From Pseudomonas marvdashtae (GTDB lineage Bacteria; Pseudomonadota; Gammaproteobacteria; Pseudomonadales; Pseudomonadaceae), in NCBI RefSeq assembly GCF_014268655.2, contig NZ_JABWQX020000001.1, positions 2,758,001 to 2,822,000 on the forward strand: a DNA stretch of 64,000 nucleotides. The letters run 5' to 3'. The position numbers were made by a program, and so were the translations under genes. Below the pieces are notes generated by a model that searched no databases, was not told the origin of the DNA, and was given only the letters and a program-made list of their open reading frames with translations. Shown here in pieces: positions 22,354 through 44,049 of this stretch. Every line of letters begins with the position of its first letter. Positions within the stretch are counted from its first letter, which is position 1.

Positions 22354-22381
22354 GCCCGCTATTCTCCCAGGAGCGGCTCTT

Positions 22382-22473
22382 GTGGCGAGGGAGCTTGCTC
22401 CCGCTGGGCTGCGCAGCGGCCCCACGATCTTACAGTCGCTGCGCAACTGAGCGGGAGCAAGCTCCCTCGCCAC
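22382..22473. repeat. Inverted pair of REP elements (REPIN-like)
   Basis: A REP (22382-22404) and its inverted copy (22451-22473) are separated by 46 bp containing GCTGCGCAGCGG-type pairing bases, so the whole can form one long hairpin. It lies between the converging CBS and AraC genes. Confidence 0.85.
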
Positions 22474-22497
22474 AACAGCGGTTCGCCGCCGAAACCC

Positions 22498-24599: not shown

Positions 24600-24726
24600 G
24601 TGGCGAGGGAGCTTGCTCCCGCTCGCAGCAGCAGTCGTCAAACCGCTGCCTACTGTGTGCCTGGCGAAACGGGTTGGCTGGGTTGGGGCCGCTTCGCAAC
24701 CCAGCGGGAGCAAGCTCCCTCGCCAC
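24600..24726. repeat. Inverted pair of REP elements (REPIN-like)
   Basis: A REP at 24600-24622 and its inverted copy at 24704-24726 are separated by 81 bp. The pair sits between the divergent GGDEF operon and the phytate locus. The rest of the 460-bp intergenic space (24459-24918) holds the PHO box and no gene that can be supported. Confidence 0.85.
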
Positions 24727-36942: not shown

Positions 36943-37452
36943 ATGCTTGATGCAGCTAAGCCGGCGGAGCACGCCCTTCATGCTTTATACCGTGACCACG
37001 GCGGTTGGCTCGAAGGTTGGCTGAGGCGGCGCCTGGGCAACGCCTGGGATGCGGCCGACCTGCGCCAGGATACGTTTTTGCGGGTATTGTCCAGCGCCCA
37101 ACCGTTGGCTGACTTGCACGAACCCCGTGCTTATCTGCTGACGGTGGGCAAGAGGCTCCTGAGTAACTTCTATACCCGCCGCAACCTGGAACAGGCGTAT
37201 CTCGGCGCCTTGGCGAGCTTGCCTGAAGCCTGCGTCCCGTCCCCGGAGCAACGCTGGTTGCTGCTGGAAACCCTTCATGCTCTCGATGAACTGCTTGACG
37301 GCCTGCCGCCCTTGGTGCGGCGGGCTTTTTTGTGGAGCCAGCTCGAAGGGCTTGGCTATCGAGAAATCGCCGAGCGCTTGCAGGTGTCCGAGCGCACCAT
37401 CAAGCGCTACATGGCCCAGGCCTATGAGCATTGCCTGCTGGTGGAGTTTTGA
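36943..37452 (+). CDS. ECF sigma factor, FecI-like
   Basis: This 169-residue protein has sigma region 2 (LGNAWDAADLRQDTFLRVLS; PRAYLLTVGKRLLSNF) and region 4 (LPPLVRRAFLWSQLEGLGYR; IAERLQVSERTIKRYM). It belongs to the FecI/PvdS-type iron-starvation sigma factors. A Fur box lies just upstream, and a FecR-type regulator and a receptor with a signalling domain follow, so it should direct transcription of that receptor when the cognate siderophore is bound. Confidence 0.93.
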   Translation: MLDAAKPAEHALHALYRDHGGWLEGWLRRRLGNAWDAADLRQDTFLRVLSSAQPLADLHEPRAYLLTVGKRLLSNFYTRRNLEQAYLGALASLPEACVPSPEQRWLLLETLHALDELLDGLPPLVRRAFLWSQLEGLGYREIAERLQVSERTIKRYMAQAYEHCLLVEF

Positions 37453-38396
37453 TTCGCCAGGCACCGTCGCCCCAAGCCCGTGAAATCGCCCGGGCGGCGG
37501 CCCGTTGGTTGGCGAAGATCGAATCGGGCGAGGAGGGGGTCGATCACGCTGCGCTGCAACGCTGGCGCGAAAGCGACGCCAAGCACGAGGCTGCCTGGCA
37601 AAAAGCCCAGCGCTTGCGCCAACGATTCACCGAGGTTCCGCCTTCGCTGGGCATGGCAACGCTCGATCGCCCCGCATTGGCACGCCGCGCCGTGCTCAAG
37701 CGCGCCTTGGGCGTCGCCGCGGTGATGCCTGCCGCCTGGTTGCTGGGACGCCAATTGCCATTGGACGCCTGGCGTGCCGACCTGCACACCGCCACCGGCG
37801 AGCAACGTCGCTGGACGTTGGCCGATGGCAGCGCCTTGCAATTGAACACCGACAGCGCCGTGGACCTGGACCTTCGTGCGCGGCGCCTGGTGCTGGTACG
37901 CGGCGAAATCGCCCTCAAGGTTTCCGGCACCCAGCCATTGGCGGTGCAAACTCCCTACGGTGTCATCACGGTCAACCGAGGCGAAGCCTGTATCCGTCTG
38001 GAGGAGTTGACCTGCCAAGTGTCGGTACTCAGCGGTTCAGTCCAAGTGCAGCCATTGCACGGGCCAACGCTGGGGCTGGAGCAAGGCCAACAGGTCCATT
38101 TCCAAACCGCCGGCGTGGGCTCGACCAGCGGTTTCGACGTCATGCAGATGGGCTGGCGTGACGGGGTGCTGACGGCACAGAACCAGCCGCTGGGCGACTT
38201 CCTTCGAGAGCTGGACCGCTATCGCCCGGGCGTGTTGCGCTGGGACCAGGACTTGGAGTCGCTTCGGGTGACCGGCAGTTTCCGCCTGGAAAACACCGAT
38301 CGCATCCTCGCGTTGCTCTCGGCCAGCTTGCCCTTGCAAGTGCAGATGCGCACTCGCTACTGGGTCACCGTGACCCGGCGCAAAAATATCGCCTGA
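37449..38396 (+). CDS. FecR-family anti-sigma/sigma regulator
   Basis: The start is uncertain: a TTG at 37449 overlaps the sigma-factor stop as TTGA, and another TTG lies at 37431; no ATG fits. The ~315-residue protein has an N-terminal cytoplasmic DUF4880-like part (REIARAAARWLAKIESGEEG; HAALQRWRESDAKHEAAW). It also has a hydrophobic segment near residue 85-105 (LGVAAVMPAAWLLG) and the periplasmic FecR domain (TATGEQRRWTLADGSALQLN; YGVITVNRGEACIRLEE). It relays the receptor's signal to the ECF sigma factor across the inner membrane. Confidence 0.9.
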   Translation: MIRQAPSPQAREIARAAARWLAKIESGEEGVDHAALQRWRESDAKHEAAWQKAQRLRQRFTEVPPSLGMATLDRPALARRAVLKRALGVAAVMPAAWLLGRQLPLDAWRADLHTATGEQRRWTLADGSALQLNTDSAVDLDLRARRLVLVRGEIALKVSGTQPLAVQTPYGVITVNRGEACIRLEELTCQVSVLSGSVQVQPLHGPTLGLEQGQQVHFQTAGVGSTSGFDVMQMGWRDGVLTAQNQPLGDFLRELDRYRPGVLRWDQDLESLRVTGSFRLENTDRILALLSASLPLQVQMRTRYWVTVTRRKNIA

Positions 38397-38463
38397 TGCC
38401 TGTCCCCTTTTTTTGTCTCGCTTGTCATCCATGGCAACTGAACAAAAACGAGAGCGCTCTTCA

Positions 38464-40887
38464 ATGTCCGCAGTACTACCTTCGCAGTTGCGCCTGGCCA
38501 CGGCTGGCCGGCGTTCGTTGTTGAACCTGGGCCTCATGCTGAGCCTGAGCGCCAGTCCACTTTTCAGCTCATCCAGCCTGGCCGAAGACAACGCCCGGCG
38601 CAGCTATCAGGTTCCGGCCGGCAGTCTCAGCGCCGCGCTGACCCGGTTCGCCGGGCTGGCGGGGGTCAATCTCTCCGTGGACCCGGCTTTGGTGAGCGGG
38701 CGCGACAGCGCCGGGCTGGCTGGCGAATATGGTGTAGAGGAGGGCTTTGCCCGCTTGCTGCAAGGTTCCGGGTTGCAACTGCAACCGGTTGGTGAGCAGG
38801 CATATACGCTCATGCCAGCGCCGCAGGGCAATAGTCTGCAATTGGCGCCGACCTCGATTCTTGGCACCACCGATGCTTCGCAAGGCGAGCCGTACGCAGG
38901 CGGGCAAGTGGCGCGTCGTGGTTCCCAGGGTTTGCTTGGGTCGCGAGACTTCATGGAAACGCCGTTCAGCATGACCACCTACACCGGTGAAACGGTCAAG
39001 AACCTGCAAGCGCGGACCTTGGGCGATCTGGTCGCCAGCGATCCCTCTGTGCGCGCCACCAACCCGGCGGGTGGCCGCTTTGAGCAATTCTCTATCCGGG
39101 GGTTGAGCCTGTTCAACAGTGACGTGGCCTATAACGGTCTCTACGGCGTGCTGCCGACCTACACGATCGACATGGAAATGGCCGATCGCGTCGACATCCT
39201 CAAAGGCCCGACCCAGCTGATCAACGGCATCTCGCCGCGCGGCGGCGTCGGCGGCGGAATCAACGTGGTGTCCAAGCGCGCCACCGACAAGCCCATCACC
39301 TCCGTCACGGGCAGCTACGCCTCCGACAACCAACCCGGCGCGGCCGTGGACGTCGGCCGACGGTTTGGCGAGGACAACCAGTTTGGTGTGCGTTTCAACG
39401 GTGTGAAACAGTCCGGCGACACAGATTGGGACCATCAGAGCGTCGACCGCCAGATGGCCGTGCTGGGCCTGGACTTTCGCGGCGAACGCCTGCGACTCTC
39501 AACGGACATCGGGCACACCGAGCGCGAAACCGACGCGCCGCAGGAACGCGTCCAGGTGGCCGCCGCCGCGCCGGTCCCCCGCGCCAGTGATGTCAGTCGC
39601 AACTATGCGCAGCATTGGACCAAGGCGCGCACCGAGGACACCTTCGGCGCGGTGAACGCCGAATACGATCTCAACGATTCGGTCATGCTCTACGGCGGTG
39701 CCGGGGCACGCAAGAGCAATCACGACTTCCTGCGACACAACGTGGTGGTCAGCAATGCCGCTGGCGATTTTGCCGTATCGCCCCGTGATTTCACCCGGGA
39801 CGAAAACGTCCGCACGGCCAACGCGGGGGTGCGCAACTGGTTCCAGACCGGCCCGGTGAGCCATGAGCTCAACCTGGCCGCCAGCTACTTCTACATGGAC
39901 TTTGAAAACGGCGGCGCCCGCTACGCCAACGGCCGCAGCAACCTCTACGATCCGGTGCAGACACCCAAGCCAAACATCCCCACGCGCCCGGATGCCAAGG
40001 TCTACACCGAGAACCACTTCAGCGGCGTGGCGCTGTCCGACACCTTGGGCTTCTTTGACGACCGGCTGTTGCTGACCCTAGGCGCACGCTGGCAGCGGGT
40101 GGAGGTCGACGACTGGTCCAACGGCGTCAAAGGCCCCACGGCCTACGACGAAGAAAAAATCTCGCCGTCAGGCGGCATCCTGTTCAAAGCCACCGACAAG
40201 CTGTCGCTGTATGCCAACTACATGGAAGGCCTGAGCCAGGGCAAGATCGCACCGACGTCTGCCGATAACAGCGACGAAATCTTCCCGCCGTTCATCAGCC
40301 GCCAGGTCGAGATTGGCGCCAAGTACGACGCCGGAGCCCTGGCGGTCACCGCCGCGGTGTTTCGGATCAAGCAGCCGGCCTACGCGACCGACGCCACGAC
40401 GAACGACTTTGGCCCGAACGGCAAGCGCGAAAACACCGGTGTTGAATTGAGCGTGTTCGGTGAGCCCATCAAAGGCGTGCGCCTGCTGGGTGGGGTGATG
40501 TATATCGACAGTAAGTTGACCGACACCACCAACCCCGCCTTCGATGGCAACCGGGCGCCGGCCACGCCGGAATATAACGTCAATTTGGGGGCTGAGTGGG
40601 ACGTGCCGACGGTGCAGGGTTTGACCTTGACCAGTCGGGGTATCTATTCCAGTTCGCAGTATCTGGATCCTTCCAATACCAAGGAGATTGACTCCTGGGA
40701 GCGGTTTGACGTGGGGGCGCGTTATGCCTTCAAGGTGGATGACAAGCGCATTACCTTGCGCGCCAATGTCGAGAACGTGGCGGATAAGCGGTATTGGAGT
40801 TCGGCGGGGGCTTCGGATGACAGTGAGCCGGGGTTGACGTTGGCTACGCCGCGGACTTATCTGGTATCGGCTACTGTGGATTTTTGA
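38464..40887 (+). CDS. TonB-dependent siderophore receptor with STN signalling domain
   Basis: The ATG at 38464 gives an 807-residue precursor with a signal peptide (LLNLGLMLSLSASPLFSSSS). Residues about 45-115 form a secretin/TonB short N-terminal (STN) domain (YQVPAGSLSAALTRFAGLAG; LVSGRDSAGLAGEYGVEEG), the part that contacts FecR-type proteins. The plug (FSIRGLSLFNSDVAYNGLYG; VDILKGPTQLINGI) and barrel follow, ending in aromatic ATVDF. It is the third gene of a Fur-controlled sigma/FecR/receptor set. The ligand is unknown; hydroxamate or xenosiderophores are typical of the family. Confidence 0.93.
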   Translation: MSAVLPSQLRLATAGRRSLLNLGLMLSLSASPLFSSSSLAEDNARRSYQVPAGSLSAALTRFAGLAGVNLSVDPALVSGRDSAGLAGEYGVEEGFARLLQGSGLQLQPVGEQAYTLMPAPQGNSLQLAPTSILGTTDASQGEPYAGGQVARRGSQGLLGSRDFMETPFSMTTYTGETVKNLQARTLGDLVASDPSVRATNPAGGRFEQFSIRGLSLFNSDVAYNGLYGVLPTYTIDMEMADRVDILKGPTQLINGISPRGGVGGGINVVSKRATDKPITSVTGSYASDNQPGAAVDVGRRFGEDNQFGVRFNGVKQSGDTDWDHQSVDRQMAVLGLDFRGERLRLSTDIGHTERETDAPQERVQVAAAAPVPRASDVSRNYAQHWTKARTEDTFGAVNAEYDLNDSVMLYGGAGARKSNHDFLRHNVVVSNAAGDFAVSPRDFTRDENVRTANAGVRNWFQTGPVSHELNLAASYFYMDFENGGARYANGRSNLYDPVQTPKPNIPTRPDAKVYTENHFSGVALSDTLGFFDDRLLLTLGARWQRVEVDDWSNGVKGPTAYDEEKISPSGGILFKATDKLSLYANYMEGLSQGKIAPTSADNSDEIFPPFISRQVEIGAKYDAGALAVTAAVFRIKQPAYATDATTNDFGPNGKRENTGVELSVFGEPIKGVRLLGGVMYIDSKLTDTTNPAFDGNRAPATPEYNVNLGAEWDVPTVQGLTLTSRGIYSSSQYLDPSNTKEIDSWERFDVGARYAFKVDDKRITLRANVENVADKRYWSSAGASDDSEPGLTLATPRTYLVSATVDF

Positions 40888-40915
40888 GGGCTTTTTGGTT
40901 TTTGGGTTGGTGTGT

Positions 40916-41007
40916 ATATCCGTTTTTTTGGTAACGGCTGCTAATGGTTTCGCTTTTACAGCGAGTCACTTTCGATAGAGCGTGTATGGACCGGACACAT
41001 GGTTGAC
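40916..41007. repeat. Left arm of an interrupted 188-bp palindrome
   Basis: This 92-bp arm is complementary to 42217-42308 at 89 of 92 positions (mismatches at 40922, 40941 and 41003). Without the intervening IS the two arms plus GGGT would form a single 188-bp palindrome. The arm contains TACAGCGAGTCACTTT, a phrase I associate with Pseudomonas intergenic repeats. Confidence 0.9.
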
Positions 41008-41011
41008 GGGT

Positions 41012-42212
41012 GTGCGGGGACATGGTGGACACTTTTCAGCGAGCTAATTCGCCGGAAAGCCATCATGCCTTGGACTACGAGAGACACCATGAGCCTGAAA
41101 GGAAGAGTTCGTTGCCTTAGCGCGGCAACCCGGTAGCAACAAACGTGAGCTGTGTCGACGATTCGGTATCAGTCCGCAAACGGCGTACAAGTGGCTCGAA
41201 CGCTACGAGGCGCAGGGGCAGCCTGGTCTGCAAGAGAAGTCCCGCAGGCCAGCGACCAGCCCCAAACTGACCGAGGCCGCTTTGGAGGCTCAAGTCATCG
41301 CACTTAGGCAGGCCCATCCGGCATGGGGCGGACGCACAATTAGCAGCCTGTTGGGCAAGCGCATCGCTGCCAGCACTGTGACCAACGTCTTGCACCGGCA
41401 TGGCCTGATCCAACCCTCTCAGAGGGACCAAGCCGCAACGCTGCGGTTTGAACACGACGCGCCTAATGATCTTTGGCAGATGGACTTCAAAGGGCATTTT
41501 GCGCTGCAACAAGGTCGTTGCCACCCCCTGACCCTGCTGGACGACCACTCTCGGTTCAGCCTAGCCATTCAGGCTTGTGGCAACGAACGGGGAGCCACAG
41601 TGAAGGAGAAGATGATCGACGTTTTCCAGCGCTATGGCTTGCCGGCTCGTATTAACGTCGATAACGGCCCACCCTGGGGTTCGCCCCGCAATCCAGGAGA
41701 AATTACAGAACTAAGTATCTGGCTGATTCGCTTAGGAATCCGGGTCAGCTTCAGCCGTCCTCGCCATCCCCAGACCAACGGAAAGATTGAGCGTTTTCAT
41801 CGCTCTCTAAAAGCGGAAGTGCTTGATGGGAGGCATTTTTCTACACTGATGGACGCTCAATCGGCCTTTGATCGATGGCGCGAAGTTTATAACTTGCAGC
41901 GTCCTCATCAGGCGCTGGGCTACAAAGTGCCTATGGACCGCTATCGCACCAGTCCTTGGGCGTATCCGCAGCAACTATCCGACTTCGAATATGGTCCGGA
42001 TGATGTATTGGCCAAGGTTTATCACAGTCGATTCCGCTTCCAGAAACGCTACTTCAGCATCGCTAAAGGACTGGTTGGACAGCACATCGCAATACGCCCT
42101 AACGCCGAAAGCGATGGCTTGTTTGACGTCTATTTCTGCCATCATTTTTTACGGACCTTCGACATCAACAACCCTGACTACGGCGCATAATGTGTCCACT
42201 ATGTCTCCGCAC
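41012..42212. mobile_element. IS481-family insertion sequence (1,201 bp)
   Basis: The ends GTGCGGGGACAT and, inverted, GTGCGGAGACAT extend into 21-bp terminal repeats with two mismatches. The element is flanked by a 4-bp direct repeat GGGT (41008-41011 and 42213-42216), taken as the target duplication. Because bases next to it also match, an 8-bp repeat ACGGGTGT is seen and the exact edge is ambiguous by a few bases. It encodes one frameshifted transposase. The insertion lies at the exact centre of a long palindrome. Confidence 0.88.
41065..42190 (+). pseudogene. IS481-family transposase, frameshifted
   Basis: The natural start MPWTTRDTMSLK at 41065 runs into a stop within 24 codons. Skipping one base at 41101/41102 restores EEFVALARQPGSNKRELCRR and the open frame to 42190. 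Restored, the protein of about 375 residues has an N-terminal HTH (RRFGISPQTAYKWLERYEAQ) and a DDE core: WQMDFKGH, VDNGPPWGS and NGKIERFHRSL. This order is typical of IS481 transposases, normally a single frame. The extra G therefore probably inactivates it, although a truncated product from an internal TTG (41282) could carry the whole DDE domain. Confidence 0.85.
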
Positions 42213-42216
42213 GGGT

Positions 42217-42308
42217 GTCAGCCATGTGTCCGGTCCATACACGCTCTATCGAAAGTGACTCGCTGTAAAAGCGAAACCATTACCAGCCGTTACCAAAAAA
42301 ATGGATAT
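42217..42308. repeat. Right arm of the interrupted palindrome
   Basis: This is the inverted partner of 40916-41007, equal in length, with three mismatches. Beyond it, bases to 42330 (AAAAAAAAGCCCAACC) weakly mirror the sequence before the left arm, so the original repeat may extend slightly further. Confidence 0.9.
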
Positions 42309-42330
42309 TCACGCAAAAAAAAGCCCAACC

Positions 42331-42732
42331 TCAACCACCACCAAACAAATCACGCGAATCCAACAACCGCCAAGCAATCTCAGGCCGCTTCTCCAACCCC
42401 CGCCGAATCGCCGCCGGAATTGACTGGCGAATCTTGCGGCACAGCCCAGGCTGCTCATCAAACTCGATCGCAATACCCCGCATGGTCCGCACCTCGTTAA
42501 AACCAGGCTCAACGGTCAAACGCACCCCCAGATTCTCAAACAGCCGCTGCTGCAACCGCTCCAGCTCATCCAGGCTCTCGATATTCTCCAACCGCTCAAG
42601 CAGACGCTTCTCCTCCTGACGATTCAGGCAAAGGATGCGCAAATCGCTGCCCGGCGTTTGCAGCAACGCATCACGCCCACAATCACAGACGCCAGGCGGG
42701 CAGGGGGGACGGATTGGCATCGACGCGGTCAT
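42331..42732 (-). CDS. Conserved hypothetical protein with Cys-rich N-terminus
   Basis: Two close ATGs (42732 and 42720) are possible; the first gives 133 residues. The N-terminus RPPCPPGVCDC holds three cysteines (C11, C16, C18) that could bind metal. The middle is a charged helix pair (RQEEKRLLERLENIESLDEL), and the end reads PEIAWRLLDSRDLFGGG. I believe similar proteins are widespread in Pseudomonas but know no function. The long frame extending upstream is not supported. It lies beside the IS palindrome, divergent from the M42 peptidase. Confidence 0.7.
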   Translation of the reverse strand: MTASMPIRPPCPPGVCDCGRDALLQTPGSDLRILCLNRQEEKRLLERLENIESLDELERLQQRLFENLGVRLTVEPGFNEVRTMRGIAIEFDEQPGLCRKIRQSIPAAIRRGLEKRPEIAWRLLDSRDLFGGG

Positions 42733-42978
42733 GGGCTTCACAAGGTCTGCAACACAACAAAATCGCCTTCGACGTAGGGGCGTTCCACGCAATGTGATGC
42801 TTGGCGCCGCGCCGGTCAACCCTCCCGCTAGGCCACTTGTCCGCACCTTGGCAGGCCCCGCTCGTCAGTTTCGTCACGATCCGATCAAATTTTTCAGCGC
42901 CAGGCGGGCTCAAGAAGACAGACACGTCGCGGCCCGCTTCGTCAGGCGCCGCGCCCGAAAAAAAGGAGACCTCATTCG

Positions 42979-44049
42979 ATGCAACCCAATCCGACCACCT
43001 TAGCGCTGCTGGAAGAACTGCTGATGGCCCGCGGGCCTGGCGGGCAAGAGCAGGAAGTGCGCGATATCTGCCTGCGCGAGCTCAAGCCGCACTGCGACGA
43101 GACCTGGGTCGATCCGGCCGGCAATGTCGTCGGCCTGATCAAGGGAGCCCGTCCGACCGCCAGGTCCAATTCGCCAATCAGGATCATGGCGCACCTGGAT
43201 GAGATCGCCATGCTGGTCAAGCGCATCGAGCCCGACGGCACCTTGCGGGTGGTGGCGCTGGGCGGTGCCAACCCGATCAATTTCGGGGTATGCCCGGTGG
43301 ACATTCTTGGCGACCGGGATTTCATTCCTGGCGTGCTGTCGTTCGGGTCGATGCACAGCACCGGCGAAACCCACCAGGGCGCGGATGTGCTGTCGGGCAA
43401 CGTCAATTGGGGCGACGTTCATGTCATCACCCGTTGTTCCAGTGAGCAATTGCAAGCGCACGGGGTGCGTCCCGGGACGCGGGTGGTGCTAAGCCAGCAT
43501 TGGCGCCAACCTTTCCGGGTCGGCGATGCCCTGGCCGCGCATTTCCTCGATGATCGCGCGCCCATGGTTGCCTCCATCCAGGCCGCCACGTTATTGGTCG
43601 CGCGCCGTCAAGAGCTGGCGAGAGACGTGTATTTCGCCTTCACGACGCAGGAAGAAGAGTCCAATGCCGGCGCGCTCTATGCTGCCAGCCATCTGCCTGG
43701 GGATGTCACGGTGGCGGTTGAGGTTGGGCCGGTAGTCGCGGAATACGCGACTCGCCTGAGCATCGATCCGATCATCAATACAGGCGACCAGAATGGCTGT
43801 TACAGCCGCGATGTCGTCGACCAGTTGTACCAGGCCGGCAAACGCTGCGGACTGACGCCGCAGCTCGCGCTGCTGGTGGATTTTGCCAGTGACGCCAGTG
43901 CAATCATGAGCAGCGGGATTTCAGCCCAAGGCGGTTGTATTGCGATTCCGACCGAGAACACCCACGGTTATGAACTGATCGTGGACGGCAGTATCGAGGC
44001 CTGCGCGGCGACGTTGCTGGAGTTTCTGCTCGATCGCGCAGGTGGCTGA
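42979..44049 (+). CDS. M42-family metallopeptidase
   Basis: This 356-residue protein shows the M42/M20-clan dizinc aminopeptidase motifs: IRIMAHLDEIAM (His72, Asp74), FLDDRAPM at the bridging Asp, TTQEEESNAGA with the catalytic Glu and metal Glu, VAVEVGP, and IPTENTHGYE with the last His. Members are cytosolic, often dodecameric, aminopeptidases or endoglucanase-like annotations. A good RBS (AGGAGA) supports the start. It has no same-strand partner; a hairpin follows 18 bases after the stop. Confidence 0.9.
   Translation: MQPNPTTLALLEELLMARGPGGQEQEVRDICLRELKPHCDETWVDPAGNVVGLIKGARPTARSNSPIRIMAHLDEIAMLVKRIEPDGTLRVVALGGANPINFGVCPVDILGDRDFIPGVLSFGSMHSTGETHQGADVLSGNVNWGDVHVITRCSSEQLQAHGVRPGTRVVLSQHWRQPFRVGDALAAHFLDDRAPMVASIQAATLLVARRQELARDVYFAFTTQEEESNAGALYAASHLPGDVTVAVEVGPVVAEYATRLSIDPIINTGDQNGCYSRDVVDQLYQAGKRCGLTPQLALLVDFASDASAIMSSGISAQGGCIAIPTENTHGYELIVDGSIEACAATLLEFLLDRAGG

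Follow-up and report, generated by a model that had tools for sequence, protein, structure and literature searches.

How an insertion sequence (IS) came to lie in the middle of a long, almost perfect palindrome between two convergent genes is the question raised by the locus considered here. The palindrome is part of a stretch of DNA from the focal genome, G000, which is 64 kb long and is referred to as the window; other G numbers indicate genomes compared, and L numbers individual loci or copies. A first-pass annotation had described an IS inserted exactly in the center of a 188-bp palindrome, with duplication of GGGT, and had suggested that the transposase recognizes the tip of an extruded hairpin or that a mobile repeat served as the landing site. 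The observation was partly confirmed and the interpretation partly supported. The mirror symmetry is real, with 40916-41007 and 42217-42308 being complementary at 89 of the 92 positions, and GGGT is indeed present on both sides (Table 1). The inverted repeat is continuous into the IS (40907-41035 versus 42189-42317, 90%). Inverted pairs of 20-mers less than 2 kb apart formed three clusters in the window, one of which was the focal palindrome, and 20 mononucleotide shuffles of the window gave one such hit in total. The other two clusters, at 22380-22475 and 24600-24726, are short hairpins with GAGGGAGCTTGCTCCC arms and the look of REP doublets (REPIN-like).

Table 1. Features of the focal locus, with positions as counted in the window
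Feature	Position	Strand	Evidence or remark
TonB-dependent receptor gene, left neighbor	38413..40887	+	Pfam Plug, TonB barrel, STN
Left outer arm (67 bp) of the two-armed dispersed repeat, ATATCC...GTCACTTTCGATAGAGCG	40916..40982	+	Repeat matches in G000; complementary to the right arm at 65/67 positions
Left hairpin tip ATAGAGCG, loop of the target hairpin	40975..40982	+	Uninterrupted at G000:C9:12-44
IS481-family insertion sequence, 1259 bp	40983..42241	+	Ends set by homologous copies
Left terminal inverted repeat	40983..41032	+	43/50 match to the right one
GGGT, taken as target duplication in the first-pass annotation	41008..41011	+	Inside the left terminal repeat
Transposase gene, integrase core	41065..42190	+	Frame broken once near the start
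Right terminal inverted repeat	42192..42241	-	43/50 match to the left one
Second GGGT (ACCC in the right terminal repeat)	42213..42216	+	Inside the right terminal repeat
Right outer arm (67 bp) of the dispersed repeat	42242..42308	-	Complementary to the left arm at 65/67 positions
Right hairpin tip CGCTCTAT	42242..42249	+	Reverse complement of the left tip
Right neighbor ORF, 171 aa	42331..42846	-	Convergent with the receptor gene

The IS and the repeat surrounding it

The limits of the IS had been placed at 41012-42212, which was wrong. When 40975-42250 was used as the query against 398 genomes of the genus, with at most 2 candidates scored per genome, matches were found in 28 genomes, the own genome included, and full-length homologues with 66-91% identity aligned from query position 3-9 to 1267-1276. 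Query position 9 corresponds to 40983, where TGTATGGACC begins, and position 1267 to 42241, where GGTCCATACA ends. With 40983-42241 as the query and at most 15 candidates scored per genome, 29 listed copies in 11 genomes spanned positions 1-1259. The resolved copies start with TGTA and end with TACA, and the DNA just outside differs between copies. The ends of the homologous alignments and this divergence outside TGTA...TACA therefore place the IS at 40983-42241. GGGT/ACCC is a mismatch block within the terminal repeats of the IS and had been misread as a target site duplication (TSD); it was ruled out as such because of its position. The 92-bp arms do not hold together as one unit either, since the inner 25 bp are IS terminal repeat and only the outer 67 bp are host repeat.

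Judged from its sequence, the focal IS is assigned to the IS481 family, on the basis of the family model score of its intact relative L116, the integrase core, and the TGT...ACA terminal repeats. The intact relative scored 293 bits with the family model (NCBIfam NF033577; cut-off, 224 bits), and the focal open stretch alone reached 217 bits, slightly under the cut-off, because the frame is broken near the start of the transposase. Residues 12-374 of the focal transposase are 94% identical to those of an intact relative. Pfam indicated rve and rve_3 in the focal transposase; HTH_28/29/32 and LZ_Tnp_IS481 were found in four relatives, so that the HTH is known here from these relatives. The focal copy does not possess the single intact transposase ORF that is present in the relatives. 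Its flank comparison gave no TSD beyond 2 bp, which is CG, compared to the IS481-family TSDs of 2 to 15 bp stated in the excerpts of PMC10045372. The IS is present as a single copy in G000 (one match at E 0.001), and this, together with the broken transposase frame, indicates that the focal site is probably a fossil. A separate locus, L154 (G023:C1:3017965-3018320), contains both IS ends only about 350 bp apart and is possibly an internally deleted, MITE-like derivative.

The outer-arm repeat had 22 matches in G000 at E values up to 10, with 19 of these below 1e-6, both focal arms counted. Each repeat arm contains a small hairpin, GTCACTTT...AAAGTAAC, and arms are often paired in inverted order, 0.1 to 5 kb apart and with varying contents. 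Uninterrupted hairpins gave 265 matches in 10 genomes (per-genome counts complete), including the focal tip hairpin at G000:C9:12-44, and many of the hairpins among the matches listed stand in inverted pairs. An Rfam scan of 40000-43200 gave no match, a literature search with the sequence letters of the repeat gave no related paper, as judged by title and abstract, and the excerpts of PMC4666352, on triplex repeats, contained nothing useful. The hairpins at L003, L005, and L014 in G000 run on into CAAATGTATGGT and not into the more usual CAAAACGCTTTTGCCCC, which suggests a second version of the two-armed repeat. At L105 (G000:C1:3038180-3040390), a two-armed repeat was seen by eye to contain a chorismate mutase-like ORF, as if the repeat were able to carry cargo.

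The neighborhood of the focal site was compared with that in other genomes of the genus. DNA matching 42335-42860 is present in 228 of the 398 genomes; a Pfam scan of the right neighbor ORF at E 0.001 gave no match. Among 29 other loci with this ORF, those that contained the receptor gene in the same stretch were taken as syntenic, which yielded 10 loci (G035 and the genomes of L080-L083, L086-L088, L090, and L093). Arms and IS were both missing from the junction in all 10, as the empty-site comparison proposed in the first-pass annotation has now revealed. This absence indicates that the two-armed element is itself probably an insertion between the convergent genes. In the two loci closest by the right neighbor ORF, L075 and L076, the stretch covered does not contain the receptor gene. 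Intergenic inverted repeats sit most frequently between convergent genes, as stated in the excerpts of Silby et al. 2009 (PMC2718517). At the L086 junction (G112), a different palindromic repeat of the CTCTGTACGAAAAGCC type was seen by eye in the same convergent gap. Immediately upstream of the receptor gene in the window, at 36943-38396, are sigma-factor-like and FecR-like ORFs (by eye).

Insertion sites of related elements

Copies of related elements were collected by similarity of the IS, not of the flanks. They comprised the copies from the genus and 80 loci obtained by transposase alignment in GTDB genomes, which were the best 80 of 511 relatives and included 4 without recognizable ends. 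From the 45 genus copy/flank rows, three wrong pairings (L120 at 974 bp, L128 at 1379 bp, and L037 at 922 bp) were dropped. Loci with a flank of less than 20 bp were excluded, sites with equal 20-nt flanks were merged, and in the case of two possible end positions, the one giving a TSD was chosen. The resulting first set contained 99 distinct sites, 63 of them with an exact TSD of 5 bp or more. In the refined set, 9 of the 99 sites were removed, at which an inner repeat had been mistaken for the end, and 1 was added, leading to 91 sites, 64 with a TSD of 5-10 bp; some of the remaining rows without a TSD may still carry wrong ends. Additional genomes gave one new distinct site, L299, and L292 and L293 were merged due to 20-nt flanks identical to those of known sites.

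A perfect stem of at least 4 bp was flush with the TSD at 37 of the 63 exact-TSD sites of the first set, compared to 0.53% of 12,600 positions chosen at random from the loci analyzed. Pairing the left and right flanks of different copies gave 10.4% with at least 4 bp, because the stems resemble each other. When a distance of up to 4 bp from the TSD edges was allowed, a stem of 6 bp or more was present at 51 of the 63 sites (control, 2.7%) and missing at 12. In the refined set, a stem of at least 6 bp was flush with the TSD at 36 of the 64 sites, and at none of the 64 when the TSD was shifted by 1 or 2 bp. These 36 sites are termed “flush.” The insertion sites have repeat families in common and do not represent independent cases. 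Relatives of the IS often insert at the tip of a small hairpin in a repeat arm, at a fixed point in several copies. The dispersed repeat as a landing site, as the first-pass annotation had it, is thus backed by the relatives, and so is a preference for hairpin tips, although the usual target is the small hairpin of one arm and not the center of a 188-bp palindrome.

Hosts of the flush sites include Pseudomonas, Azotobacter, Paraburkholderia, Acidovorax, Rhodoferax, Hydrogenophaga, Undibacterium, Iodobacter, and Cupriavidus. The relatives of the IS that often insert at hairpin tips are from Pseudomonas and several Betaproteobacteria. A class-wide sample gave matches in 4 of 369 genomes, including G000, with the ends of four other loci unresolved.

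The TSD lengths at the 36 flush sites were 5 bp (1 site), 6 bp (20 sites), 7 bp (4 sites), 8 bp (6 sites), 9 bp (3 sites), and 10 bp (2 sites). Permutation of these lengths among the sites left a mean of 12.9 sites flush, with a maximum of 21 in 2000 permutations. As a measure independent of the TSD, the spacing of the words ACTTT and AAAGT was used, which were found nearby in 27 of the 36 flush sites. The TSD length was this spacing minus 4 in all 15 sites with the TSD 2 bp inside both words, spacings of 10, 11, 12, 13, and 14 bp corresponding to TSDs of 6, 7, 8, 9, and 10 bp; the remaining 12 of the 27 sites, largely betaproteobacterial, had an offset of 4-6 bp. Three copies in G268 (L116, L025, and L052), 100% identical over 1259 bp, possess TSDs of 9, 8, and 7 bp at spacings of 13, 12, and 11 bp, respectively. 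Different TSDs with the same IS also occur in G306, where two copies have TSDs of 8 and 9 bp at spacings of 12 and 13 bp, the third listed copy there (L027) being without a TSD, and in LB400, where L214 and L215 have TSDs of 7 and 6 bp at spacings of 17 and 16 bp. One exception is L026 (G296), with a TSD of 8 bp where the rule gives 7 bp, the length found at its identical sister L053 with the same hairpin sequence. Apparently, it is the hairpin and not the enzyme that determines how much DNA is duplicated, which is unusual. Identical copies with 7-, 8-, and 9-bp TSDs that match the spacing of the borders would provide a testable reason for the scattered TSD lengths of IS481 elements. A literature search that covered few subscription journals found no report of a TSD length following the target hairpin.

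Several relatives lie outside this rule. In the subgroup of G203, G254, and P. fluorescens PfAR1, a 5-bp TSD is located beside the axis of CCCTCTCCC/GGGAGAGGG hairpins. Three of the six sites in G200 (L123, L158, and L159) are without a hairpin, but part of a half-site is retained there and the TSD is of 6 bp as before. No hairpin was seen by eye in the flanks of the plasmid copies from E. coli/E. marmotae (L273 and L275, the same site) and Acidovorax (L276); L288, the same site as L245, also has none, and L297 is without a TSD. The subgroup, G200, and the plasmid copies indicate that the length rule is a tendency of a part of the IS481 family, not of all members.

Evaluation of what the transposase recognizes needs to consider that the borders of the flush sites are conserved in sequence, with G/C at −1/+1 in 31 and T/A at −3/+3 in 35 of the 36 sites. 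This makes two TTTG/CAAA half-sites in double-stranded DNA, with flexible spacing and without a structural role of the hairpin, a full rival to recognition of a hairpin. Such half-sites, which would fit either history of the focal site discussed below, may well be what is used. They would agree with the strong border consensus, with the hairpin-free sites of G200, and with TSD ends that track the sequence borders even at those 16 of the 36 sites where one (13 sites), two (1 site), or three (2 sites) further pairs could form inside the TSD. On the other hand, 26 distinct versions of the 11-nt left stem occur among the 36 sites, and TSDs of 6 to 10 bp that follow a spacing would be unusual for a fixed transpososome.

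Alternatively, a group of IS481 transposases may recognize an extruded hairpin or cruciform by its tip, with the stem setting the borders of strand transfer and hence the stagger. This is conceivable but rather doubtful; the TSD is strictly the unpaired loop in only 20 of the 36 flush sites, and both this number and locus L258, described below, weaken the case. The stagger at which DDE transposases cut their target is generally regarded as almost constant. If the target sets the stagger, such an IS481 transposase would be a DDE transposase without a fixed target-duplication length, and repeated attack on neighboring tips would eliminate the intervening DNA and create long palindromes with a central IS.

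A possible history of the focal site

A single insertion into the ordinary hairpin with this loop would have left ATAGAGCG in the same direction on both sides of the IS, and the inner side of the arm would come next. The focal site looks different: ATAGAGCG on the left of the IS is opposed by its reverse complement CGCTCTAT on the right, and outward of each tip follows the outer side of a repeat arm. Inverted tips without a TSD are the layout expected from tip-to-tip joining, and a deletion is favored. The focal copy probably joins the tips of both arms following loss of the interior, leaving an IS481 element, now with a broken transposase, in a two-armed element between convergent genes. The 188-bp palindrome is more likely a secondary product, in which two tips were joined and the interior was lost.

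The events may have occurred as follows. A two-armed inverted-repeat element would first have been inserted between the two convergent genes, and the IS would then have entered the tip of the small hairpin in one repeat arm, with TTTG...CAAA borders in the flush class. The IS ends would join at two borders symmetric about the hairpin axis, with the duplicated target spanning the loop and sometimes 1-3 closing pairs, and with a TSD length that follows the distance between the borders, as demonstrated on the relatives. The copy in one arm may subsequently have become linked with the tip of the other arm. Either an IS end would have attacked this second tip, which would be an adjacent deletion, or two copies in the same direction, one in each arm, would have recombined. 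Both routes would remove the interior and result in the order arm and tip, IS, tip and reversed arm, without a TSD.

Mirror junctions were found elsewhere at L152 and L153 (G023), L265 (Mesorhizobium), and L299 (P. xenovorans LB400). L152 and L153 are joined tips from two neighboring hairpin units. At L299, the collapsed mirror is exact over the 60 nt tested, and the TSD, CGGCCG, is palindromic itself. In LB400, an IS is also present in a single arm of one element (L295) and in both arms of another (L284 with L293). An IS in both arms was seen only there and in opposite orientation, in which case recombination would invert and not delete. A locus showing the focal element before loss of the interior was not found among the loci compared.

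As another explanation, the IS may have been inserted directly at the center of a pre-existing palindrome of the two outer arms, with later inversion of one TSD copy by gene conversion between the two ends or with a TSD of only 2 bp. This course of events is less likely, but has to be taken seriously as an alternative. Uninterrupted, collapsed palindromes of the arm repeat, for which the first-pass annotation had proposed a search, exist in 12 of the 398 genus genomes, including G000 (C3:5336-5375), and the joined focal arms fold at −73 kcal/mol (DNA parameters). L258 (Caballeronia), with a direct, non-palindromic 6-bp TSD and a mirror match of 85% between its arms over 40 nt, looks like such an event. 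At L225 and L240, the tips are inverted although the hairpin sides are ordinary, so that a tip can become inverted in another way, such as conversion between the ends. Direct insertion, however, accounts for the inverted tip only with a second step. Solo palindromes are also infrequent in comparison with ordinary hairpins; the same 10 genomes contained 2 and 265, respectively, as counted with search patterns that differ somewhat in length. Moreover, GTGAG on both sides, as at L299, occurred in none of 10 uninterrupted hairpins in LB400; five with GTAGG on both sides are uninformative by pattern. L258, L225, and L240 on the one side and the rarity of collapsed palindromes on the other make the deletion a preference and not a proof.

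It is very improbable that the mobile unit includes the 67-bp arms, whether as long terminal repeats or as a MITE moved in trans by the transposase. The arms are present on both sides of the IS, the entire unit is absent from the 10 syntenic loci, and such a relation was proposed for the R0/R2 repeats of SBW25, according to the excerpts of Silby et al. 2009 (PMC2718517). The resolved copies of the genus, however, begin at TGTA, mostly lie within one hairpin, and have outer sequences that differ between the two sides, and the arm repeat is common without any IS. The first-pass annotation had named arms carried by other copies as evidence for long terminal repeats; this applies to the inner 25 bp only, and the copies without the outer 67 bp ruled out arms of this kind. 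A MITE mobilized by the IS was rejected as well, since repeat arms and IS ends differ in sequence and meet at 40982/40983.

An assembly artefact can hardly be responsible, although G000 is a draft genome in 18 contigs with one related arm at a contig end (C9), because the window is interior to a 4.36-Mb contig and like configurations are present in the 4-contig genome G023 and in the LB400 chromosome. Tip-to-tip joining with loss of the interior, the preferred history, would represent a simple route for an IS to delete the interior of an inverted repeat and to end up central in a palindrome without a TSD.

Comparison with known elements

Targeting of REP or palindromic units is known from IS1397, ISKpn1 (IS3), IS621, ISPpu9/10, ISPa11 (IS110), and ISPsy8 (IS3), and the transposase appears to determine the target in the case of IS1397 and ISKpn1 (PMC1525189). 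These elements belong to other IS families, and the excerpts of this article do not describe a TSD length tied to a hairpin. IS481EU or Banshee of parabasalids is similar in that several TSD lengths occur in one element, left unexplained by the authors in the excerpts of PMC10045372; in contrast, these are about 4, 15, and 25 bp, and the main text is without “palindrom” or “hairpin.” The same article states that elements of one superfamily tend toward similar TSD lengths.

The R0, R2, and R178 repeats of P. fluorescens are also intergenic inverted-repeat units, mostly between convergent genes, in the excerpts of PMC2718517. The R2 ends flank the PFLU5832 element, which is listed as an IS481 copy in those of PMC11708052. 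The 67-bp arm family was matched to no named family, with the consensus of R0, R2, and R178 outside this comparison.

ISEc19/yagA of E. coli is an annotated member of the IS481 family with the same transposase family. The IS481 of SBW25 (PMC11708052) resembles the focal group in its transposase family, its long inverted repeats (49 bp in SBW25), its fixed insertion point in a palindromic repeat (REP), and one copy without a TSD; TSD-less IS copies are also a subject of that article. The authors had mistaken a 4-bp sequence inside the element for the TSD, which is the same trap as GGGT at the focal site. The excerpts of the SBW25 report differ from the data presented here in that neither TSDs following a hairpin nor tip-to-tip junctions are described. 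REP targeting by the SBW25 IS481 was known already; for the TSD length rule, no report was found in the literature searched.
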